Part shown: in pieces, positions 36,711 through 45,589 of the stretch
Position numbering within the stretch: the first letter of the stretch is position 1
How the letters are laid out: every line of letters starts with the position of its first letter
Origin: an uncultured Naasia sp.
GTDB lineage: Bacteria > Actinomycetota > Actinomycetes > Actinomycetales > Microbacteriaceae
Reading direction: 5' to 3'
Assembly: GCA_913778905.1 (NCBI GenBank)
Contig: CAJYYA010000001.1
Span: 124,001 to 188,000, forward strand
DNA length: 64,000 nt
The notes under the pieces: model-generated
What the model saw: only the letters and a program-made list of their open reading frames with translations
The model's database searches: none
Told to the model about the DNA's origin: nothing
Program-made: the position numbers and the translations under genes

Positions 36711-37322
36711 TCATCGCACCCCTCGCGCATTCAGGGCATCACCGAGGTCGTCGGCATGCTTCAGCGCGGCCACCAGGAACGGCACCGCGAAAGCGCGGAG
36801 GCTCGATCGCGCTCCGCGGGCACGCTGCGCGTCGCGGATGTCGCGCGCGAGTCGTCCGAGCACCGTCACGGTGCTGAGCGTGACGGTCAGCATGAGCGCC
36901 ACCCGGTCCGGCCGGAGCCCCACGCGCGCGAAGGGGCGGAGTCCGCGCTCGAGGGCGTCCAGCAGATGCGTGACGCGCGTCGTCAGCATCAGCAGACCCG
37001 CGAAGACGATGGCCGCCGTGATCCGGCAAGTGTTCGCGAACGCGGGCTCGAGGCCGACGAAGATCAGTTGCGCGACCGCGGTGACGAGGATGACCCATCT
37101 GACCGCCCAAACCTGAGCGGCGAAGACCTGCAGTCCGAGCGCACCGTCGCGCAGATCCGCCGCGGCGTACGCGAGCACCGCCGCACCGAGCGCGACTCCC
37201 CCCGCCCACCACTGCGACGGGAGCAGCGAGATGCCGAGGGCCCCGGCGATGAACAGCAGCATCTTCGGCCCCGCCGGCACACGATTGAGCCAGCCGGATC
37301 CGGGTCGGTAGAGACTCAGCAC
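36711..37322 (-). CDS. ecfT: Energy-coupling factor transmembrane protein EcfT (BioN-like)
   Basis: EcfT is the membrane coupling subunit of an ECF vitamin importer. The 203-residue protein has about five hydrophobic segments and the two family coupling motifs in its cytoplasmic helices, AQRARG and ALNARG. It follows ecfA with a 7-bp overlap and belongs to an operon containing bioY, so it is most likely the BioN component of a biotin transporter. GTG 37322 (VLSLYRPGSG) is chosen as the first start after the ecfA overlap. Confidence 0.9.
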   Translation of the reverse strand: MLSLYRPGSGWLNRVPAGPKMLLFIAGALGISLLPSQWWAGGVALGAAVLAYAAADLRDGALGLQVFAAQVWAVRWVILVTAVAQLIFVGLEPAFANTCRITAAIVFAGLLMLTTRVTHLLDALERGLRPFARVGLRPDRVALMLTVTLSTVTVLGRLARDIRDAQRARGARSSLRAFAVPFLVAALKHADDLGDALNARGVR

Positions 37323-38005
37323 GACAGCACTGCCTCGTAGTCGGCGACCACTTTCGCCGGGTCCCCTGTCGAAGCCACCTTTCCATCGGCGAAGAGCACG
37401 GCCGTCTCGCACCGCTGCGCGAGTTCCAGATCGTGCGTCACGAGGACGAGCCGGTGACCCGTGTCCGCCAAGAGATGCCCGGTGATGAGGCGAGCGTTGC
37501 GGGCGTCGAGATAGGCGGTCGGCTCGTCGGCGACGACCAGCTCCGGGTCGCGCACGAACGCCCCGCACAGCGCGAGGAGTTGCTTCTGCCCGCCGGACAG
37601 ATCGTGCGATGGGCGATCTGCGAGATCCGTCAGCCCGAAGCGGGCCAGCGCATCCTCGACCCGAGTCGCGACCACGGCGGACGGCAGACGATCGGCACGC
37701 AGGGAGAACGCGACGTCCTCCTTCACCGTCGGCATGATGATCTGCGCGTCGGGGTTGCTGAAGACGAGCGCCACCCGCTTGCGCAGGTCGGCGGTCGCGG
37801 AACGAGCCCCCGGGTCGAGTCCGAGCACGTCGACCCGCCCGCCGGTACGCGGAACCAAGCCTCCGATAAGTCGCGCGAAGGTCGATTTGCCGGATCCGTT
37901 CTCCCCGATCACCGCGACGGTGCGGGCGTCGAGCTCGAGGGACACATCGCGAAGAGCGTGGGTCTCGCCGACGCGCACGTCGACGGACTCGAGTCGGATG
38001 CTCAC
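37316..38005 (-). CDS. ecfA: Energy-coupling factor ATPase EcfA (BioM-like)
   Basis: This is an ABC-type ATPase of 229 residues that powers the ECF transporter. It has Walker A GENGSGKST (about residue 35), Q-loop region FSNPDAQIIMPTVKEDV, signature LSGGQKQ (about 135), Walker B VVADEPTAYLD and the H-loop VTHD. A single ATPase gene, as here, forms a homodimer in BioMNY-type systems. The start GTG 38005 overlaps the thiolase stop as GTGA. Confidence 0.92.
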   Translation of the reverse strand: MSIRLESVDVRVGETHALRDVSLELDARTVAVIGENGSGKSTFARLIGGLVPRTGGRVDVLGLDPGARSATADLRKRVALVFSNPDAQIIMPTVKEDVAFSLRADRLPSAVVATRVEDALARFGLTDLADRPSHDLSGGQKQLLALCGAFVRDPELVVADEPTAYLDARNARLITGHLLADTGHRLVLVTHDLELAQRCETAVLFADGKVASTGDPAKVVADYEAVLSC

Positions 38006-39123
38006 CGGACGACCTCCAGGACGGCCGCGACCCCCATGCCGCCGCCAACCGACGCGGCAGCGACGCCGAGCGTTCCGGCCGGGGCGCCGGATCCGACGAG
38101 ACGGCTGAACAGACGGACGAGCGCGACGGCACCACTCGCACCCCACGGATGCCCGAGCGCGAGGGCGCCGCCGTCGGCACACACACGCTCGTCGTCCTCG
38201 GCGATGCCGAGCCGATCGAGCACGGCGAGGCTCTGCGCGGCGAACGCTTCGACGATCTCGAAGGCGCTGACAGCGGTGACGTCCGCCCCGAACGACGCCA
38301 GCGCCTCGCGGATGGCGGGTGCTGCGCCGATTCCGGGGAGAGCGGGGTCGCAGCCGACGACCGCCCCCGTGCGGATGGCGAGCCCCGGGGCGTCTCCGGC
38401 GGGGGCCAGCACGACCACGGCGGCACCGTCTCCGATGCGTGTCGCGGTGCCGGCCGTCACCGACCCTCCGAGAGTCAACGGCCGCAGCCGCGCGAGAAGG
38501 GGCTGAGCCGCACCGATCGCGTCGTCGCGTGCAAGGCCCGCGAGGGGCACGAGTTCCCGCTCGAATCGGCCTGCGGCGAGCGCAGCCTCCGCTCGAGCGT
38601 GACTGCGTGCGGCATGGGCATCCTGACGCGCGCGGGTGATTCCGTCGTGGGCGGCGAGGTCCCCCGCGGCCTGGAGCATGTCGGGATCCGCGAAACCTTC
38701 GGGCGCGAAGGGGGCTCGGTCGTAAGGGACCCCGTCGATCGAACGGACCGGCGCTGTGGAGGCGCTCTCCACCCCTCCGGCGACACGGATCCTCCGGTCA
38801 CCGGAACACATCGCGGCCGCCGCGTCGAGCACGGCGGCGAGGCCGCTGCCGCATTGGCGGTCCACCGTGGAGCCGGGCACCTCGATGCCGAGACCGGCGG
38901 CGAGCGCGGCGATCCGCGCCGGATTCCCACCCGGCCCCATGCAGTTGCCGAGGGTCACGTCGGCGACGGACGGGCGGGATCCGAGTACGGCTTCCGCGTC
39001 GTCGACGGCCGCGCGGATCACGGGTGCCGCGAGCGCCGACACGTCGAGTCGCGCGAGCGCCCGACCGCGCGTTCCGATGGGGGTACGGCGGGCGGCGACG
39101 ATGACGGCGGCGTCACCGGACAT
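38002..39123 (-). CDS. Thiolase family protein with atypical catalytic residues
   Basis: This 373-residue protein is clearly a thiolase (acetyl-CoA acetyltransferase fold): nucleophile Cys91 in DRQCGSGLAA and His325 in GGALALGHPWGASG. Two usual residues are changed: the Asn of the NEAFA box is Val291 (VEAFAAQ), and the second catalytic Cys, normally before IGGGMG, is Ser358 (ASVGGGMG). Condensation or cleavage is therefore uncertain; an acyl transferase or a specialised activity is possible. It lies between an acyl-CoA ligase and ecfA inside the bioY operon, overlapping both neighbours, so a link to biotin or its pimeloyl precursor is suggested but unproven. Confidence 0.88.
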   Translation of the reverse strand: MSGDAAVIVAARRTPIGTRGRALARLDVSALAAPVIRAAVDDAEAVLGSRPSVADVTLGNCMGPGGNPARIAALAAGLGIEVPGSTVDRQCGSGLAAVLDAAAAMCSGDRRIRVAGGVESASTAPVRSIDGVPYDRAPFAPEGFADPDMLQAAGDLAAHDGITRARQDAHAARSHARAEAALAAGRFERELVPLAGLARDDAIGAAQPLLARLRPLTLGGSVTAGTATRIGDGAAVVVLAPAGDAPGLAIRTGAVVGCDPALPGIGAAPAIREALASFGADVTAVSAFEIVEAFAAQSLAVLDRLGIAEDDERVCADGGALALGHPWGASGAVALVRLFSRLVGSGAPAGTLGVAAASVGGGMGVAAVLEVVR

Positions 39124-40228
39124 GAGGTACCACCTCTCCTTCGATCGCGCGGCGGGCCGTCTCGGCGCGCAACGGCTTCCCGGACGCGCTGCGAGGCACC
39201 GGGCCGAATGTCCATCTTCGTGGGCGATGGGCCGGATGGAGTAGCTGACCGGCGGCCTCGCGCACGGCGCCGGCGATCGATTCCAGATCGCCTCCCTCGT
39301 CGGTCTCGACATGCGCGGCCACGAGCGCGCCGATGCGGGGAACGGGCCATCCGAAGACCACGATGTCGCGCACTCCCGGCACACCGCGGAGGACAGCCTC
39401 GACCTCTTCGGGGACGATGGTCGCCGAAGCACTGAGGATGGCGTCGTCCGCGCGTCCGAGCAGACGAAGTCGATCGCCGACCAGCTCGGCGCGGTCACCG
39501 ACGGTTGCCCATTCCCCGTCCCGGCGGAGCGGGCCGGTGGATCCGGCGTAGCCGAGTGCGACGAAGGGTGACCGCACCCAAAGTTCGTCGCCTCGGATGT
39601 CGATCTCGACACCTGGAAAGGGGCGGAGCCCGTGGCCGGTGTCGACGGCGACGAAGGAGAGCTCGGCCGCTCCGTAATAGCTCACGACCCGGATTCCTGC
39701 GGCCTCGGCCCCCTCGCGAAGCGCGAGGTCGAGATGGGACCCGCCGATGAGGGCGCTTCGAAGACTCGGGGCCGGTGACTCGAGGGCGGCGCGAAGCGCC
39801 TGCGGGGTTCCGTGGAGCAGCGGCGCTCCGGACGTGTCGGCCGGCGTCGGGCCGCCGTCGAGCGCGTGCGCGAGGGAGAAGAGGGTGAGCGACGACGAGG
39901 CCGGGGCAGGCAGTCGAACCTCGTCGAGAAGCTCGCCCTCGGGATCCCGTCCGACCCCGAACAGCCGCGCCACATCGTCGAACGAGGCGGACCAGGAGTC
40001 GGCGGTCCGGACCACCACGCGCGGCGATCCGCTGCTCCCCGACGTGAGCGTCGCCCAGGCCGCACCGGTCGGCGGCTCGTCCGCCCCGACGTTTCGCATC
40101 ACCTCGTCGCGTTGCGAGTCATCCCAGCGACGGTCGAGAACCAGGGGAACGTCGCCTGCACGGCGGATCTGCGCGAGCCTCTCGAGCAGATCCGTCGTGT
40201 CGTCGGTGAGCGGGACGAAGCGAGTCAC
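39113..40228 (-). CDS. AMP-forming acyl-CoA ligase, MenE-sized
   Basis: This is an adenylate-forming enzyme of 371 residues, short like MenE. The phosphate-binding motif TLTSGSSGSPRVVVRT is near residue 55, YYGAAELSF corresponds to A5, VGDRAELVGDRLRLLGRADD to A7-A8, and SASGKPLR contains the C-terminal catalytic Lys. It should activate a carboxylic acid as acyl-AMP/CoA. MenE itself (o-succinylbenzoate) is possible by size, but the operon context (bioY, thiolase, ecfA, ecfT) points to a fatty or dicarboxylic acid such as pimelate; this is inference. GTG 40228 overlaps the bioY stop (GTGA). Confidence 0.85.
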   Translation of the reverse strand: MTRFVPLTDDTTDLLERLAQIRRAGDVPLVLDRRWDDSQRDEVMRNVGADEPPTGAAWATLTSGSSGSPRVVVRTADSWSASFDDVARLFGVGRDPEGELLDEVRLPAPASSSLTLFSLAHALDGGPTPADTSGAPLLHGTPQALRAALESPAPSLRSALIGGSHLDLALREGAEAAGIRVVSYYGAAELSFVAVDTGHGLRPFPGVEIDIRGDELWVRSPFVALGYAGSTGPLRRDGEWATVGDRAELVGDRLRLLGRADDAILSASATIVPEEVEAVLRGVPGVRDIVVFGWPVPRIGALVAAHVETDEGGDLESIAGAVREAAGQLLHPAHRPRRWTFGPVPRSASGKPLRAETARRAIEGEVVPHVR

Positions 40229-40824
40229 GCCGTGACGCGGTCCTTCGCGGCCGGGGTCCAGGTGCGACCGAATGCCCGCGGGTAGGCCCGAAGCAAGGTC
40301 AGCGACACGGCGGTCGCGACCGCGACCTTGATGAGGTCGCCGGGGATGAAGACGAGGTTGCCGACGAACGCGGCATCGAGCGGGATGCGCGCGACGAAGC
40401 TGTAGACGGGGATGCCGAACGCGTAGATGACCACGAGTCCGCCGACCAGAGTGCCGACGAGGATGCGCAGCACGGTCGGCTTCCGGCCGCCCGCGTGGAC
40501 GATGAGTCCGATCACGAGAGCTCCGACGACCCAGCCGATCAGATAGCCGGCGGTCGGACCGACGAAGACGCCGATGCCGCCGCGACCACCCGACAGAAGG
40601 GGGACGCCGATGGCGACGAGAGCGAGCAGAACGGTCACGGAGAGAGCGCCGAGCCACGGGCCGAGCACGATGCCGGCCAGCATGACGCCGAGCGTCTGAG
40701 CTGTGATCGGTACGGGTCCGATGTTGAAGCTGCCGACCAGACCGAGGGCGGCGATGATCGCCGCGAAGACGGCGACGCGGGCGAAGTCAGTCGCGCTGAG
40801 CTGACGTCGTGCGCTGTGATCCAT
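40225..40824 (-). CDS. bioY: Biotin transporter substrate-binding subunit BioY
   Basis: BioY is the biotin-specific S component of an ECF importer in the inner membrane. The 199-residue protein has six hydrophobic segments and the family signatures PVPITAQTLGVMLAG and GPTAGYLIGW; DAAFVGNLVFIPGDLIKV is the typical last motif. Start ATG 40824 (MDHSARRQL) follows AGAGGA. It heads an overlapping five-gene operon ending in ecfT, and its promoter region holds two BioQ-type palindromes, so repression by BioQ when biotin is plentiful is expected. Confidence 0.94.
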   Translation of the reverse strand: MDHSARRQLSATDFARVAVFAAIIAALGLVGSFNIGPVPITAQTLGVMLAGIVLGPWLGALSVTVLLALVAIGVPLLSGGRGGIGVFVGPTAGYLIGWVVGALVIGLIVHAGGRKPTVLRILVGTLVGGLVVIYAFGIPVYSFVARIPLDAAFVGNLVFIPGDLIKVAVATAVSLTLLRAYPRAFGRTWTPAAKDRVTA

Positions 40825-40858
40825 GGGTTCCTCTCGATTCGCCCGACGCCGATCGGCC

Positions 40859-40918
40859 TCGGATGTTGCGGCACATACCGCACGTTCCGGCGAGCGTGAT
40901 CCGCCGCAACGTGCGGTC
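40859..40918 (-). repeat. Family C repeat in the bioY leader
   Basis: A 60-bp copy of the element at 29892-29955: CGGATGTTGCGGC, linker, then ACCGCACGTTCCGGC-N10-GCCGCAACGTGCGGT. It lies between the BioQ boxes and the bioY start, so it would be in the 5' leader of the transcript. Confidence 0.75.
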
Positions 40919-40951
40919 ACGACCGGGCGCATCTCCGCGAAAGAGACCACC

Positions 40952-40979
40952 TGAACAGTGTTCACCTGAACGCCGTTCA
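40952..40979. promoter_or_regulatory. Two BioQ operator boxes
   Basis: Two perfect palindromes, TGAAC-AGT-GTTCA (40952-40964) and TGAAC-GCC-GTTCA (40967-40979), sit 15 bp apart between divergent bioY and bioQ. They match the TGAAC-N3-GTTCA/GTTAC motif known for the TetR regulator BioQ. The -10 TATAGT of bioQ begins 2 bp after the second box, so autorepression is expected. Confidence 0.85.
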
Positions 40980-40993
40980 CTATAGTGGTGACT

Positions 40994-41611
40994 ATGGCTG
41001 GAGCAGCAAACGGACGGCGACACAGCCGCGACGACGTCGCCCGTGCCGCGCTCGCGATCCTCGACGAGTACGGGTTGCCCGACCTCACCATGCGCCGGCT
41101 CGCGGCGTCCCTCGACGTGCAGGCCAGCGCGCTCTACTGGCACTTCCCCAACAAGCAGACCCTCATCGCCGAGCTGGCGGATCGCATCGTCGGCAGGGCA
41201 GCACTGACGCCGACGGTCGAGGGCCGCGCGGATCCCGGTGACTGGCACGAAGGACTACGAGGTTCAGCGGATCGCCTCCGCGATTCGCTCCTCGCCTACC
41301 GCGACGGCGCGGAGGTCGTCACCAGCACCCTCGCGCTCGGACTCGGCACACGATCGGCCGCGCAGGGTTTCGCGGATGCACTGAGCACCGCCGGGTTCGA
41401 TCCGCGGACGACCGCTCGCGCCTCGAACGCGCTGCTCCACTACGTGCTCGGTCACGTGCAACAGGAGCAGCAGCGCCTGCAGTACGACAGCCTGGGCGTG
41501 CGCGCGTCCCGGTCCGACCCGCCGGATCTCGCGGCGGACGCGTCGTCGGACTTCCGCTTCGGAGTGGACCTCCTGGTCTCCGGGTTGTCAGCGTTGCACC
41601 CCGCGCATTGA
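40994..41611 (+). CDS. bioQ: TetR family regulator, BioQ-like
   Basis: This is a 205-residue TetR regulator. The N-terminal helix-turn-helix reads ARAALAILDEYGLPDLTMRRLAASLDVQASALYWHFPNKQTL, followed by an alpha-helical ligand domain. It is divergent from bioY with two BioQ-like operators between, which supports the BioQ assignment (the biotin-responsive regulator of actinobacteria). ATG 40994 lies 7 nt after TATAGT, so a leaderless mRNA is likely; in-frame GTGs at 40985 and 40988 are alternatives. Family BioQ responds indirectly through biotin status. Confidence 0.88.
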   Translation: MAGAANGRRHSRDDVARAALAILDEYGLPDLTMRRLAASLDVQASALYWHFPNKQTLIAELADRIVGRAALTPTVEGRADPGDWHEGLRGSADRLRDSLLAYRDGAEVVTSTLALGLGTRSAAQGFADALSTAGFDPRTTARASNALLHYVLGHVQQEQQRLQYDSLGVRASRSDPPDLAADASSDFRFGVDLLVSGLSALHPAH

Positions 41612-41663: not shown

Positions 41664-42154
41664 TCAGCGTGCACCGCGACGGAATCGGAACCCCACCCGG
41701 CCGCGCCCCGCGTCGTAGGCGTAATCGAGCTGGCTGAGCGCGTGAAGGCTGGTGTTCGCGAAGGCCTCGTTGCCATGCGCGGCGATCCGATGACCCCAGG
41801 CCACATCGACAGGGGCACCGCTTCGCGCGTCTCCGACCGTGAAGTCGTAGAGCGCTCGGCCGCCGAGGTCGGGCAGCGTGACGACCACCCGTTGCCCGTC
41901 GAGGAGGACGCTCCGCCGCGACCGTCGACCGGTTCCCTGCCGCTGGGGCGGATCGACGCCGGCGGGGACCTGCACGATCGATAGTCTTCGGGGCGAGAAG
42001 TCTCGTGGGCTCCCCCGCATCGGGGTCACCCCCTGCCGAAAAGCGCCGCCTTGAGATGTGACGAACGGCCGATGTCGGTCAGGGAGACCGAGCATCCGGA
42101 GAGAGCCGCGGCTCCGAGGACGGCGACGCCCAGAAGTGCGACGAACCGTTTCAT
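41664..42154 (-). pseudogene. Remnant duplicate of the DUF3443-like lipoprotein
   Basis: The region encodes two pieces of a protein homologous to the next gene (42164-43294). A lipoprotein signal peptide starts at ATG 42154: MKRFVALLGV...ALSGC, running to a stop at 42026-42028. Separated from it, a C-terminal fragment (about 41664-42000) reads SIVQVPAGVDPPQ and ends LSQLDYAYDAGRGRVGF, closely matching the intact gene's C-terminus. The central region including the aspartyl-protease motif is missing. This looks like a tandem duplication that lost its middle. Confidence 0.8.
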
Positions 42155-42163
42155 CGCCGCGAC

Positions 42164-43294
42164 TCAGTCACGAACGTCATGGAACCGGAACCCGAGGCGG
42201 CCGGCACCGGCGTCGTAGGCGTAATCGAGCTGGCTGAGGGTGTGGAGGCTCGTGTTCATGAATGGCTTGTTGCCGTGAGAGGCCATGTGATGCCCCCACG
42301 CGACGTCATCCGGTGCTCCGGTCGCGGGGTCGCCGACGGTGAAGCTGTAGATGGTCCGGTCGAGATCGGGCGAGGTGATGACGACCTGCTGTCCGCTCTG
42401 CAGCACGCTTCGCGTCGCGTCGGCTCCATTCCCCTGCTGCTGAGGGGGATCGAACCCATCGGGCACTTGGACGATCGAATACATCAGTCCCGTATCGACC
42501 AGAAGCCCGCCGCATTGAGGGGCCACGCCGGCCGTCGGCACGCTGACGCAGGCGGTGGGCATCTGCCAGTCCGCTCCCTGATCGGCCGGCAACGGGTCGA
42601 GCTGGATGAATTCGAACCCCGAGGTGTCGGCGTCGGTGATGCCGAGAGTGACCTGCGTCGGGGTGAGCACGTACCCCGGTGCGACCGCGCTCCCCTTCGC
42701 CGTACCGGGGATGTTGAGGAACGGGTTGAGGGTCGGGTCGACGGTGGTCCCGTGCGGATCCTGGCGGTCGAAGCCGATGCCCATCATCGACACGGTGATG
42801 TCGTCCTGGTCCCTGGTGCAGGCCTCACCCGTCTTGCATTGCTCGGTGACCATGCGCACCTTGAACGGCGCACTCTCGATGTTGGTGTCGCTGTCCGCGG
42901 AGAGGAAGCGCACTGTGGTCGTCACCCACTCACCGGAATAGCTGTTGCCGCTGCTGCTGTAGGTGAAGTCCGAGAACGTCTCGCCGGTCGAGGTGTAGTC
43001 CGAGCCCAGGTACCTCTGGGCGATGACCAGCCCCGTCGATCCGGTGTCGAGCATGACGTTCGTCTGGGCGCCCCCGGCGATGCTCACCGGCAGGTGGAGC
43101 CCCTCGGAGAGTGAACTCTTCGGAGCCAGCGTTAAGGACACCCCACCGGACGCCGCAGTGGTCGCTGCCACGAGGGGTCCCGGATCGTCGGAGAGAAGAT
43201 CCCTTGCATTCCCATCCGCGATCGACGAGCTGCAGCCGACCAGGAGAAGAAGGAGGATCGGAGCCGCGCAGGCGGCGGCCGTGATGCGATGCAC
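42164..43294 (-). CDS. Lipoprotein with aspartyl-protease-like domain (DUF3443-like)
   Basis: The 376-residue protein begins with a lipoprotein signal peptide, VHRITAAACAAPILLLLLVGCSSS, whose lipobox cysteine anchors it outside the membrane. The mature part contains VMLDTGSTGLVIAQRYLG, a retropepsin/pepsin-like DTGS motif, and a second ILVDTGLMYSIV block that could supply the other half of the active site. The overall layout resembles DUF3443 proteins; function is unknown. GTG 43294 is preceded by AAAGG. A truncated tandem copy lies just downstream. Confidence 0.72.
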   Translation of the reverse strand: MHRITAAACAAPILLLLLVGCSSSIADGNARDLLSDDPGPLVAATTAASGGVSLTLAPKSSLSEGLHLPVSIAGGAQTNVMLDTGSTGLVIAQRYLGSDYTSTGETFSDFTYSSSGNSYSGEWVTTTVRFLSADSDTNIESAPFKVRMVTEQCKTGEACTRDQDDITVSMMGIGFDRQDPHGTTVDPTLNPFLNIPGTAKGSAVAPGYVLTPTQVTLGITDADTSGFEFIQLDPLPADQGADWQMPTACVSVPTAGVAPQCGGLLVDTGLMYSIVQVPDGFDPPQQQGNGADATRSVLQSGQQVVITSPDLDRTIYSFTVGDPATGAPDDVAWGHHMASHGNKPFMNTSLHTLSQLDYAYDAGAGRLGFRFHDVRD

Positions 43295-43485
43295 GAGGTG
43301 ACCTTTCGAAGGCACGCTGGAGCAGTCCCCCTGCCAGCGTGCGGATGGATCCGGTGACCTGTCTTCAACCAACGGCGAGTGTCACCGATCCCGCCCCGGA
43401 ACAAGTCTCATGTTCGAGAGACACGACTCACAGCCCCTATTCGGGAGCATGGACGGCACCTGTGGCATCGGATGTCGCAGACGGC

Positions 43486-43538: not shown

Positions 43539-43940
43539 TCAGACGACGCGCGACTCCTTGTCGTCCTCCTCGGACTCGATGTGGACGTCGGCGACGGTCA
43601 CGTTGATCTCGGCGACCTCCAGGCCCACCAGGGTGGTCAGGGCTTCGGCGACAGCGGAACGGACCTGATTCGCCACCCGCTGCAGCTCGACCGGGTACTC
43701 GGCGACCAGCGTGATGTCGGCGGCGACCTGCTTCTCGCCGACCTCCACCTTGACGCCCTGACCGTGGTCGGTGTTGCCGATCGCGTCACGGACCGTGCCG
43801 ATCAGGCGAGCGGCTCCGCCGCCGAGGGCATGCACGCCGCGCACCTCGCGGGCGGCGATGCCGGCGACCTTCGCGACGACGGCGTCGTCGATGGTGGTGG
43901 TGCCCTGGGTCTGCAGAGTGGTGGGGGTAGCGGTTGCCAT
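43539..43940 (-). CDS. Asp23/Gls24 family envelope stress response protein
   Basis: This is a 133-residue Asp23/Gls24 protein, a family of small cytoplasmic proteins induced by alkaline or envelope stress and associated with the membrane. Motifs include IAAREVRGVHALGGG and VKVEVGEKQVAADITLVAEYPVELQRVANQVR, followed by VGLEVAEINVTVADVHIE. It is divergent from a sigma-factor gene, with two further Asp23-related genes behind that sigma factor. ATG 43940 follows GGAG. Confidence 0.92.
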   Translation of the reverse strand: MATATPTTLQTQGTTTIDDAVVAKVAGIAAREVRGVHALGGGAARLIGTVRDAIGNTDHGQGVKVEVGEKQVAADITLVAEYPVELQRVANQVRSAVAEALTTLVGLEVAEINVTVADVHIESEEDDKESRVV

Positions 43941-44029
43941 GATGTTCTCCGTTTCTGTTCGTAGGCTTTCGACACCACTGAGACGCGAGCGCCGCTCGGT
44001 TCGTCACGGTTTTTCACTGACAGAAAGCT

Positions 44030-44048
44030 GGGAACCCGATAGGTTCCC
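44030..44048. promoter_or_regulatory. Palindrome in the divergent asp23/sigma promoter
   Basis: GGGAACC-CGATA-GGTTCCC is a perfect inverted repeat ending just before the sigma-gene start. GGAAC is also a common -35 element for ECF sigma factors, so it may be a promoter or regulator-binding element for this module. Confidence 0.5.
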
Positions 44049-44049
44049 G

Positions 44050-44616
44050 ATGAGAGCGATGGGAGGCATGGTGGCCGCACTCGACAGCGCACCGGATGCT
44101 CTTCTCGCCCAGCGTGCGGCGGATGGCGACGAGGTCGCCTTCGCGGTCATCATGCGTCGGCACGGTCCCTACCTGAAGGCTTTCGCCACTCGCCTGCTGC
44201 GCTCGAACAGCGACGCTGATGACGTCGTGCAAGAGGCGTTCATCCAGGCGTGGCGCAGACTGCCCGACCTGCAAGACCCGGCCGCCCTGCGCGCGTGGCT
44301 GACGACGATGGTGTCGCGGAAGACGACCGATCGGATCCGGAGTCGGAAACAGTCCGACCCCCTCGAGGACATCGAGATCCCCGACCTCGCCGGCGACCCT
44401 GAGGACCACGCGCTCGGATCCGACAAGATGCGCGCGCTGGCGAGAGTTCTCGACACCCTTCCGCGCGACCAGCGGCAGATCTGGTTGCTTCGAGAAGTGG
44501 CCGGGCACTCCTATACCGAGATCGCCGAAAGGCTCGACATGCCTGTCCCGACGATCCGAGGTCGACTCGCGCGCGCCCGAGCGCACGTGCTCGACGGAAT
44601 GAGCGAATGGCGGTGA
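44050..44616 (+). CDS. ECF-type RNA polymerase sigma factor
   Basis: This sigma-70-family factor of 188 residues has region 2 (ADDVVQEAFIQAWRRL) and region 4 (LPRDQRQIWLLREVAGHSYTEIAERL). Regions 1 and 3 are absent, as in ECF factors. It sits between an Asp23 gene and a gene whose N-terminus resembles an anti-sigma factor; the latter overlaps its stop (GTGA). This suggests an envelope-stress sigma. Start is ATG 44050; internal starts at 44068 or 44071 have GGGAGG nearby. The GGGAACC palindrome is immediately upstream. Confidence 0.85.
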   Translation: MRAMGGMVAALDSAPDALLAQRAADGDEVAFAVIMRRHGPYLKAFATRLLRSNSDADDVVQEAFIQAWRRLPDLQDPAALRAWLTTMVSRKTTDRIRSRKQSDPLEDIEIPDLAGDPEDHALGSDKMRALARVLDTLPRDQRQIWLLREVAGHSYTEIAERLDMPVPTIRGRLARARAHVLDGMSEWR

Positions 44617-45272
44617 CCATGAACGAGAACATCACTGACGGCCTCCCGGAAGACGACATCGGCGGCAGCGGCTACACCCTCGACGATCTGTCGGCGTACC
44701 TGGACGCCGGTCGCACCCCGTACGACCCGGTCATCGAGCACAACGCGGAATGCCGCTCGGTGCTCGCCTCGCTCGAGCAGGTCGGGCGCTGGTCGAGAGA
44801 GCTCCTGGCCGGCGAAGCCGAGACCGCCCCCGTCGAGGCGGCGGGGGCGGGCTGGATGGACGGGGTCCTCGGAGCCATCGCCCGCGAGGTCCGCAGCGGC
44901 AGGGACATCGCCTACCCGGGCCCCGACCTGCGCACGACGCTGTCGATCACGGAGGGCGCGGTCAGATCCCTCATCCGTGCGACCGGCGATGAGGTCCCCG
45001 GTGTCCTCGTCGGACGATCGAGGATCGACGGACCGCTCGACGCCCCCGGAGAGCCCGTCACGGTGACCGTCACGATCAGTGTCCGCTTCGGCTACGCGCT
45101 GCAGGATGCGAGCGACGCGGTCAGGACGTCGATCGCGGAGACCTTGGCGCGGCACACCCCGCTGGCGATCGCCGCGATCGACGTGGTGGTGGACGACATT
45201 CGCGACAGCGGGGACGAGGAGCTCGGCCCCCTCGCGAGCCGGGTGGCCGATGCCGGAGGGGACGCACGATGA
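44613..45272 (+). CDS. Putative anti-sigma factor / Asp23-like fusion
   Basis: This 219-residue protein has two parts. Residues about 15-60 (LSAYLDAGRTPYDPVIEHNAECRS) resemble the N-terminal zinc-binding helical domain of anti-sigma factors, with HxxxC kept but the second cysteine replaced (CRSV). Residues about 85-215 resemble the Asp23/Gls24 fold (LRTTLSITEGAVRSLIRATGDEV, VTVTVTISVRFGYALQDA). No membrane segment is seen. GTG 44613 overlaps the sigma stop; ATG 44607 and 44619 are alternatives. Anti-sigma function is inferred from position and the N-terminal motif. Confidence 0.7.
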   Translation: MTMNENITDGLPEDDIGGSGYTLDDLSAYLDAGRTPYDPVIEHNAECRSVLASLEQVGRWSRELLAGEAETAPVEAAGAGWMDGVLGAIAREVRSGRDIAYPGPDLRTTLSITEGAVRSLIRATGDEVPGVLVGRSRIDGPLDAPGEPVTVTVTISVRFGYALQDASDAVRTSIAETLARHTPLAIAAIDVVVDDIRDSGDEELGPLASRVADAGGDAR

Positions 45273-45589
45273 GCACAGCGTTGGAAGAGCGGGTCGACGC
45301 CGTCGCCGAGAACGTCCCGGGTATCGCGGAGGTGTACGAATCGATGCGACCCATCGGCGGCCGCCTCGCCATGCGCAAGCTGGGGTTGGGGCCCGGCACG
45401 CGCTCGTTCGTGCGCGGATCGGGCGCGGTGGCCGAGGTCACCGTGAGCGTCGGGCTCCGACCCGACGCCGATGCGGCCATGGTGCGCGACGCGCTCGCCG
45501 GCCGGATCCGCGCGATCGACGGGCTTGAAGAGGCCAAGGTGCACATCCGCATCTCCCGGGTCCATCACGACGAGTCGACGCGCATCTGA
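45269..45589 (+). CDS. Small Asp23-module protein
   Basis: This is a 106-residue protein whose ATG overlaps the previous stop (ATGA). The C-terminal half, VAEVTVSVGLRPDADAAMVRDALAGRIRAIDGLEEAKVHIRIS, has an alternating strand/helix pattern like Asp23 domains and the preceding gene. No catalytic motif. It is likely a third component of the Asp23/sigma module. Confidence 0.65.
   Translation: MSTALEERVDAVAENVPGIAEVYESMRPIGGRLAMRKLGLGPGTRSFVRGSGAVAEVTVSVGLRPDADAAMVRDALAGRIRAIDGLEEAKVHIRISRVHHDESTRI

Follow-up and report, generated by a model that had tools for sequence, protein, structure and literature searches.

A putative biotin-starvation module in an uncultured Naasia sp.: an importer operon with BioQ boxes, an acyl-CoA ligase and a thiolase-like enzyme lacking the usual base

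Why should an operon for the import of biotin encode an acyl-coenzyme A (CoA) ligase and a thiolase? The question is raised by positions 36,711 to 41,611 of a 64,000-nucleotide stretch of DNA (hereafter the window) from an uncultured Naasia sp. of the Microbacteriaceae (contig CAJYYA010000001.1), where the two enzyme genes stand between bioY and the importer genes ecfA and ecfT. A first-pass annotation had proposed that the ligase and thiolase supply a biotin precursor, for example a pimeloyl thioester. Our comparison of the locus with its relatives leaves this proposal unsupported: bioB is missing here and in 32 of the 33 genomes of the family that carry the module, the window's included, and the "thiolase" is without its general-base Cys. 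The reading we favour, with a rough probability of 0.38, is a biotin-starvation module that would activate an imported biotin-like acid and rebuild its side chain, for instance turning bisnorbiotin into biotin; we infer both the substrate and the direction of the reaction.

The elements of the locus are the following, with domains assigned by Pfam.

36711 to 37325 (alternative start at 37322), minus strand: ecfT (bioN-like), transmembrane protein of an energy-coupling factor (ECF) importer, 204 amino acids; CbiQ 44.1 bits.
37316 to 38005, minus strand: ecfA (bioM-like), ECF ATPase, 229 amino acids; ABC_tran 89 bits, with TIGR04520 as the best NCBIfam model, under its cut-off.
38002 to 39123, minus strand: thiolase-like enzyme, YhfS-type, 373 amino acids; Thiolase_N 138.6 and Thiolase_C 86.9 bits.
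39113 to 40228, minus strand: acyl-CoA ligase, YhfT-type, N-terminally short, 371 amino acids; AMP-binding 33.9 and AMP-binding_C 30.5 bits.
40225 to 40824, minus strand: bioY, biotin S component of the ECF importer, 199 amino acids; BioY 127.4 bits.
40952 to 40964, no strand assigned: BioQ box 1, TGAACAGTGTTCA, a perfect TGAAC-N3-GTTCA.
40967 to 40979, no strand assigned: BioQ box 2, TGAACGCCGTTCA, a perfect TGAAC-N3-GTTCA, 15 bp after box 1.
40985 to 41611, plus strand: TetR-type repressor, BioQ-like, divergent from bioY, 208 amino acids; TetR_N 42.5 and TetR_C_1 46.1 bits.

The five minus-strand genes form one overlapping unit, as had been annotated, and the S, A and T components of an ECF biotin importer all lie within this single operon. 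The junctions overlap by 4 bp at bioY/ligase, 11 bp at ligase/thiolase and 4 bp at thiolase/ecfA. The 7 bp given earlier for ecfA/ecfT are correct only for the ecfT start at 37322; from 37325 the overlap is 10 bp.

The two perfect copies of TGAAC-N3-GTTCA, the predicted BioQ site (PMC3398298), and the TetR gene were likewise found ahead of the operon. No other perfect copy is present in the window, where sites with at most one mismatch number four against 0.47 expected, a count reached in 0 of 100 shuffles. The whole 3.2-Mb genome contains three perfect boxes, namely the operon pair and one single box elsewhere. Among solved chains, those nearest to the TetR protein are 5xs9, 5yek and 5yej (E 1.6e-34 to 2e-34, the next at 3e-24), which the structure table labels TetR family regulators and which we take to be M. 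smegmatis BioQ. At the sequence level the locus presents what defines a BioQ system, a TetR-type protein with TGAAC-N3-GTTCA sites at its putative targets, and it is very likely that this BioQ-like protein represses the operon through the double box.

The third perfect palindrome lies outside the window (G000:C1:90691-90703, corresponding to L034:6692-6704). It is single and stands upstream of a gene that by appearance encodes a sugar-type ABC ATPase, with an IclR-like regulator gene adjoining; it is probably not a BioQ site.

To see how widely the arrangement occurs, we used the thiolase as query against 199 genomes of the family. An orthologous thiolase is found in 33, set off from the remainder by a gap in score (>=223.6 bits against <=175.4 bits). 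The operon is patchy, since the orthologue is carried by the window's genome and by none of the other three from its genus. Its gene order is conserved: the ligase adjoins the thiolase in 33/33 loci, and all five gene types lie within the fetched stretch in 27/33 (ecfT being about 2 kb away in L061 and L062), so that the arrangement in relatives is not random. Two of the 33 loci have bioY-ligase-thiolase, one of which (L056) is cut by the contig end before ecfA and before the column of the catalytic residue Cys378, and four have the ligase-thiolase pair by itself.

In 24 of the 33 loci the first 450 bp upstream contain at least one perfect BioQ box. All 24 have a second box (at most one mismatch), the distance between neighbouring boxes is 15 bp in 27/27, and a TetR gene of BioQ-like type is present in 21/33 stretches. 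The nine loci without a box comprise L066, whose contig ends within bioY and leaves the boxes unreadable, the standalone pair L058, and seven full operons (L053, L054, L059-L063). A BioQ-type regulator is therefore not universal, as both the box and the TetR gene are missing there in these seven; the perfect box of L060, about 1.1 kb upstream, falls beyond the 450 bp counted. Three of the four standalone ligase-thiolase pairs (L041, L048 and L057, from one genus) lie away from bioY and the ECF genes, in different surroundings, and have their own double BioQ box. These boxes are an independent link of ligase and thiolase to biotin.

Does the pair then serve biotin synthesis? bioB (model TIGR00433) scores over its cut-off in 4/199 family genomes and in one of the 33 operon genomes (G070). 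In the window genome, which is 99.99% complete, the best TIGR00433 match reaches 33 bits against a cut-off of 225. Module and bioB show no association in the family (one joint case, Fisher p 0.52). BioY is present in 183/199 family genomes, and 36/36 genomes tested have an ordinary biotin protein ligase scoring above the cut-off. Because bioB is absent, pimeloyl-CoA offers this host no route to biotin by the known pathway.

The clearest departure from known chemistry was seen in the thiolase. Thiolase catalysis involves Cys89, Asn316, His348 and, as base, Cys378 of the CxG fingerprint (PMC3406046; residue positions are given in Zoogloea numbering). In the window enzyme the nucleophilic Cys and the His of the GHP motif are retained; Val occupies the position of N316 and Ser that of C378. 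We aligned 64 module copies (33 from the family, 6 from plasmid records and 25 from Bacilli) with 14 controls, consisting of 7 canonical Bacilli thiolases without an adjacent ligase and 7 paralogs; in controls L173, L177 and L179 a ligase lies 0.9-3 kb away, non-adjacent. The results show that Cys89 and His348 are kept in 64/64 module copies, while Cys378 occurs in 0/63 readable ones, being replaced by Gly (29), Ser (22) or Ala (12), with the copy of L056 cut off. Position 316 is Asn in 29 copies, Val in 29, Thr in 5 and Met in 1, so that N316 is retained in about half of them. All four catalytic residues are present in 14/14 control thiolases.

As a test on new data, we afterwards examined a class-wide set of 30 loci from 40 matching genomes, two of which (the window genome and G079) were already in the first set. 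The 28 further copies all have an adjacent ligase and Ala at position 378, which brings the loss of Cys378 to 91/91 readable ligase-linked copies; having been retrieved with a module thiolase as query under a strict cut-off, the 28 are its relatives and no random draw. Across the 30 loci position 316 is Val (25), Thr (4) or Asn (1), and the VMG fingerprint has Pro for Met in 30/30. One residue, Asp146 (window residue 146, in the loop before Met149), is invariant in 92/92 module copies and variable in the 14 controls, and may substitute for the base Cys378. A tree built by a quick method from 51 of the 78 thiolases separates the controls from all module copies at a branch with support 100, which falls short of proving one origin because the control set is small.

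We also asked which models describe the pair best. Among the equivalog models of NCBIfam, PRK06690 comes out best for the thiolases, where overall it is second to TIGR01930, and PRK07638 for the Azospirillum and Streptantibioticus ligases, with no equivalog cut-off reached; PRK06690 and PRK07638 are presumably the models of Bacillus-type YhfS and YhfT. The window thiolase scores 249.8 bits with PRK06690 against a cut-off of 498, which is reached in 0/33 family genomes and passed by one of the 14 control genomes. Orthology to YhfS consequently rests on model ranking, gene linkage and the tree. Taken with its active site, the enzyme is probably no ordinary thiolase: it would be able to load an acyl group on its Cys, and would do so without the usual base for acetyl-CoA. 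An open-access literature search turned up no description of this base loss. The use of a different base has a precedent in the OleA thiolases, where it is a Glu from the partner subunit (PMC7064751).

The ligase has an N-terminus about 50 residues shorter than that of three full-length relatives. Lys351 and four other motif residues are kept in 39/39 aligned ligases and the P-loop Ser in 37/39; the enzyme is apparently functional and would feed the thiolase-like enzyme. Its top NCBIfam match is the MenE model, with 92.7 bits against a cut-off of 345. A better MenE match lies elsewhere in 33/33 operon genomes, reaching the cut-off in 1/33; in the window genome the MenE model scores 279.8 bits at G000:C16 and 88.3 for the operon ligase, both under 345. 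A role of the ligase as MenE alone, which the first-pass annotation had named as the outcome that would overturn its proposal, is disfavoured by these superior matches.

We then looked for the pair in other lineages. A tblastn search of plasmids matched 1153 records, and six loci were inspected among the 40 matches listed. The order ecfA-ecfT-bioY-ligase-thiolase is found on plasmids of Azospirillum thermophilum, S. meliloti (pSymB) and Streptantibioticus, bioY-ligase-thiolase-ecfA-ecfT in Nonomuraea and bioY-ligase-thiolase in Paracoccus yeei; the R. etli plasmid locus has ligase-thiolase without bioY. In S. meliloti, R. etli and Streptantibioticus the neighbourhood of the pair also includes a thioesterase and a medium-chain dehydrogenase/reductase (MDR) gene. 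A search of the six plasmid loci, of which four are alphaproteobacterial, for BioR boxes with two 10-mers at up to one mismatch gave no match.

Two of the plasmid loci have peculiarities of their own. In P. yeei (L081) the genes lie on pYEE4, typed as mobilizable, and the thiolase is divergent near the nucleophile (DRQCCGGL), with Met at 316. On the Streptantibioticus plasmid pSCAT (L080), an open reading frame with the BioD-like motif GTGTEVGKT adjoins the MDR and thioesterase genes that accompany the module, which may thus sit by a biotin synthesis gene.

A pattern scan returned three stretches, including one of Paenibacillus macquariensis with bioY-ligase-thiolase. A class-wide draw of 250 Bacilli genomes around this species gave 52 with a match, from which 32 loci were fetched; 25 of the 32 have an adjacent ligase, and Cys378 is missing in 25/25 of their thiolases, the other 7 being canonical thiolases. 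Of 299 genomes drawn phylum-wide around G199, two gave strong thiolase matches (G199 and G223, >700 bits), the other matches scoring <=376 bits. The linkage of ligase and thiolase is conserved across three phyla. BirA-like palindromes, TGTTAAC-N13-17-GTTAACA (consensus, with up to three mismatches allowed), lie upstream in 14/25 Bacilli module loci as opposed to 0/7 control loci; the 14 are not all independent, because three share one sequence in close relatives. Judged by these predicted operators, the same kind of ligase-thiolase pair stands under at least two unrelated repressors.

The Bacilli loci also carry further genes, and at least one extra cycle gene is present in 19/25 of them. Three Paenibacillus-type operons (L148-L150) encode ligase, thiolase, two dehydratases, a ketoreductase and two EcfA proteins in this order; bioY leads in two of the three, and by appearance an ecfT-like gene comes next in L149 and L150. 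In L148, on which Pfam was run (L149 and L150 being matched by tblastn), the first dehydratase is FAS1_DH-like with 21.3 bits, just under the Pfam cut-off of 22, the second is MaoC with 46.4 bits (cut-off 27), and a short-chain ketoreductase follows. A ketoreductase adjoins the pair in four further Bacilli loci. In twelve others (L161-L172), two small genes after the thiolase appear dehydratase-like on the basis of a D-x-N-P-[LIV]-H motif and a weak alignment; the one locus tested gave no Pfam match for them. The relatives' ketoreductase and dehydratases, or thioesterase and MDR dehydrogenase, would make up a two-carbon elongation kit.

Based on these observations, we propose the following course for the salvage of a biotin-like acid. 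BioY, EcfA and EcfT would import biotin and perhaps close relatives of it; according to the cited text, BioY may have a broader vitamer specificity (PMC6593275). The ligase would convert the imported carboxylic acid to its CoA thioester, and the thiolase-like enzyme would load the acyl group on its Cys89. A two-carbon extension would follow, which, because the usual base Cys378 is missing, is probably either decarboxylative and ketoacyl synthase (KAS)-like, a type of condensation that requires no base, or dependent on another base. Ketoreductase, dehydratase, enoyl reductase and thioesterase, general or operon-encoded, would complete the round. As read from the relatives' genes, the acid would pass to acyl-CoA, be extended by two carbons, undergo reduction, dehydration and reduction, and be released two carbons longer.

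Six of the 25 Bacilli module genomes are without bioB, including the three Paenibacillus-type ones with the fullest gene set. Since these fullest sets and the present host both lack bioB, the product should serve a biotin auxotroph whose importer has just been derepressed. Organisms that make no biotin would profit most from a catabolite with a shortened side chain, such as bisnorbiotin, as the substrate to be turned back to biotin. Bisnorbiotin, two carbons shorter, is described as common among the biotin metabolites of man and as making up 13-23% of the biotin excreted in urine (PMC9106636).

Several observations weigh against this proposal. The operons of the 33 family loci themselves contain no cycle gene; the cycle is therefore deduced from relatives, and in the window host the reducing enzymes would have to come from outside the operon. 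Generic short-chain dehydrogenase/reductase matches are found in 5/33 family stretches (L035, L036, L052, L056 and L066; that of L035 is convergent, directly after ecfT) and weak MDR matches in 2/33. Most actinobacterial copies have lost N316 as well, a change that could point to chemistry other than condensation, and the general thiolase model TIGR01930 is still reached by the window enzyme (256 bits, cut-off 240.55). bioB is over its cut-off in 19/25 Bacilli module genomes, so that a precursor role may hold there. Microbial assays are reported to have failed to determine biotin metabolites (PMC9106636), so the assay organisms were apparently unable to use bisnorbiotin, and our open-access literature search turned up nothing on bacterial reconversion of bisnorbiotin.

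The main rival to salvage is a biotin-sparing lipid response, which we consider unlikely, if less so than the other alternatives. With biotin short and acetyl-CoA carboxylase failing in consequence, the two enzymes would recycle or extend fatty acyl chains and thereby spare malonyl-CoA, the link to bioY being regulatory only. Such a role would suit a pair described as biotin-regulated in Firmicutes (PMC7235819, PMC6391492), found both with and without bioB, and in places standing alone without bioY. However, the loss of Cys378 argues against a malonyl-free condensation of acetyl-CoA, and in three lineages a thioesterase is encoded close by that would free the acid, not feed it to lipids. The linkage to bioY and the ecf genes in 27/33 loci, moreover, suggests a shared substrate.

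Third in rank, and distinctly unlikely, comes acyl transfer or trapping, in which the ligase would make biotinyl-CoA and the Cys/His enzyme would pass the acyl group to another carrier or retain biotin in the cell. The active site lends this idea its appeal: Cys89 and His348 kept in 64/64, C378 changed and N316 changed in 35/64 would leave acyl transfer in place and weaken carbon-carbon chemistry. A second route is nevertheless unneeded where every genome tested has an ordinary biotin protein ligase above the cut-off, and the ketoreductase and dehydratase genes in the relatives' operons would be left unexplained.

A supply of pimelate or pimeloyl-CoA, with the two enzymes making or salvaging the C7 precursor, appears very improbable. 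It would draw on the co-regulation with biotin, on the bioB-containing majority of the Bacilli module genomes and on the example of BioZ, a KAS III-like enzyme described as starting biotin synthesis in Rhizobiales (PMC8024396). The distribution of bioB runs counter to it, both in the family, where 32 of 33 operon genomes lack the gene and the module shows no association with it, and in the Bacilli, where the genomes with the fullest cycle are also without it. For this host, pimelate supply is refuted unless an unknown biotin synthase exists. That a MenE ligase and a beta-oxidation thiolase were simply caught in the operon, with no role in biotin metabolism, is scarcely credible. In its favour, the best NCBIfam match of the ligase is a MenE model, if far below its cut-off, and the thiolase passes TIGR01930; against it stand a better MenE match elsewhere in 33/33 genomes, a linkage conserved in three phyla and an altered thiolase active site.

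The salvage of a biotin-like acid thus remains our preferred reading, and what has been found bears on it in several ways. That such a pair occurs under another repressor, in an importer operon and in bioB-less hosts removes the precursor hypothesis for those hosts. The orphan yhfT and yhfS are thereby reduced to a short list of candidate reactions, and the invariable absence of the thiolase base offers biochemical work a concrete starting point. A broader version, in which CoA ligase, re-based or decarboxylating thiolase, ketoreductase, MaoC-type dehydratases, enoyl reductase and thioesterase would form a widespread biotin-repressed salvage of bisnorbiotin or shorter catabolites into biotin, is more doubtful than the proposal for this host. 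If salvage is true, yhfT and yhfS, so far orphans of the biotin regulon, would gain a function, and biotin catabolites would become a usable vitamin source for auxotrophs.

Beyond the TetR gene, the window contains a 402-residue open reading frame (42164-43372, minus strand) and a shorter one (41664-42095, minus strand) with a similar C-terminal stretch; this region (41664-43372) looks like a tandem duplicate with one copy shortened. Further on (43539-45589), open reading frames resembling Asp23-type (alkaline shock) proteins and a sigma factor (43771-44616) are by appearance perhaps a stress-response cluster.

Finally, we compared the locus with known systems. The first-pass annotation knew of no defined pathway with this gene order. 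The gene combination itself is already known from B. subtilis yhfUTS (bioY homologue, ligase, thiolase), where BirA binds the operator with biotin and ATP (PMC4016012), though the cited source defines no pathway for it. Both systems place the three gene types in one biotin-controlled unit; here the repressor is a BioQ-like TetR protein, the ECF A and T genes are part of the operon, the ligase has a short N-terminus, bioB is missing and N316 is lost. We judged the likeness to B. subtilis YhfT and YhfS from models, linkage and tree. In S. aureus, yhfT-yhfS are ligase and thiolase homologues under BirA control (PMC7235819, PMC6391492). There bioY is a separate BirA target, the repressor differs from the one found here, and the cited passages give no function; in the sources for both species, yhfT and yhfS are described as putative or without function.

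With the C. glutamicum bioYMN operon, where TGAAC-N3-GTTCA boxes lie upstream of bio genes (PMC3398298), the locus shares a BioY-EcfA-EcfT importer and BioQ-type boxes. That operon has three genes, without ligase or thiolase, and C. glutamicum retains bioA, bioD and bioB. The BioZ route to a pimeloyl thioester, which reportedly uses glutaryl-CoA, likewise has a condensing enzyme of the thiolase superfamily serving biotin, but BioZ is KAS III-like and serves synthesis, whereas the window host is without bioB. The OleA thiolases are also condensing enzymes of this superfamily with a different base; they belong to a different family and operon and have no biotin link. Set against these systems, what appears new is a yhfT-yhfS-like module with BioQ boxes in a bioB-less host, together with a family-wide loss of the thiolase base.

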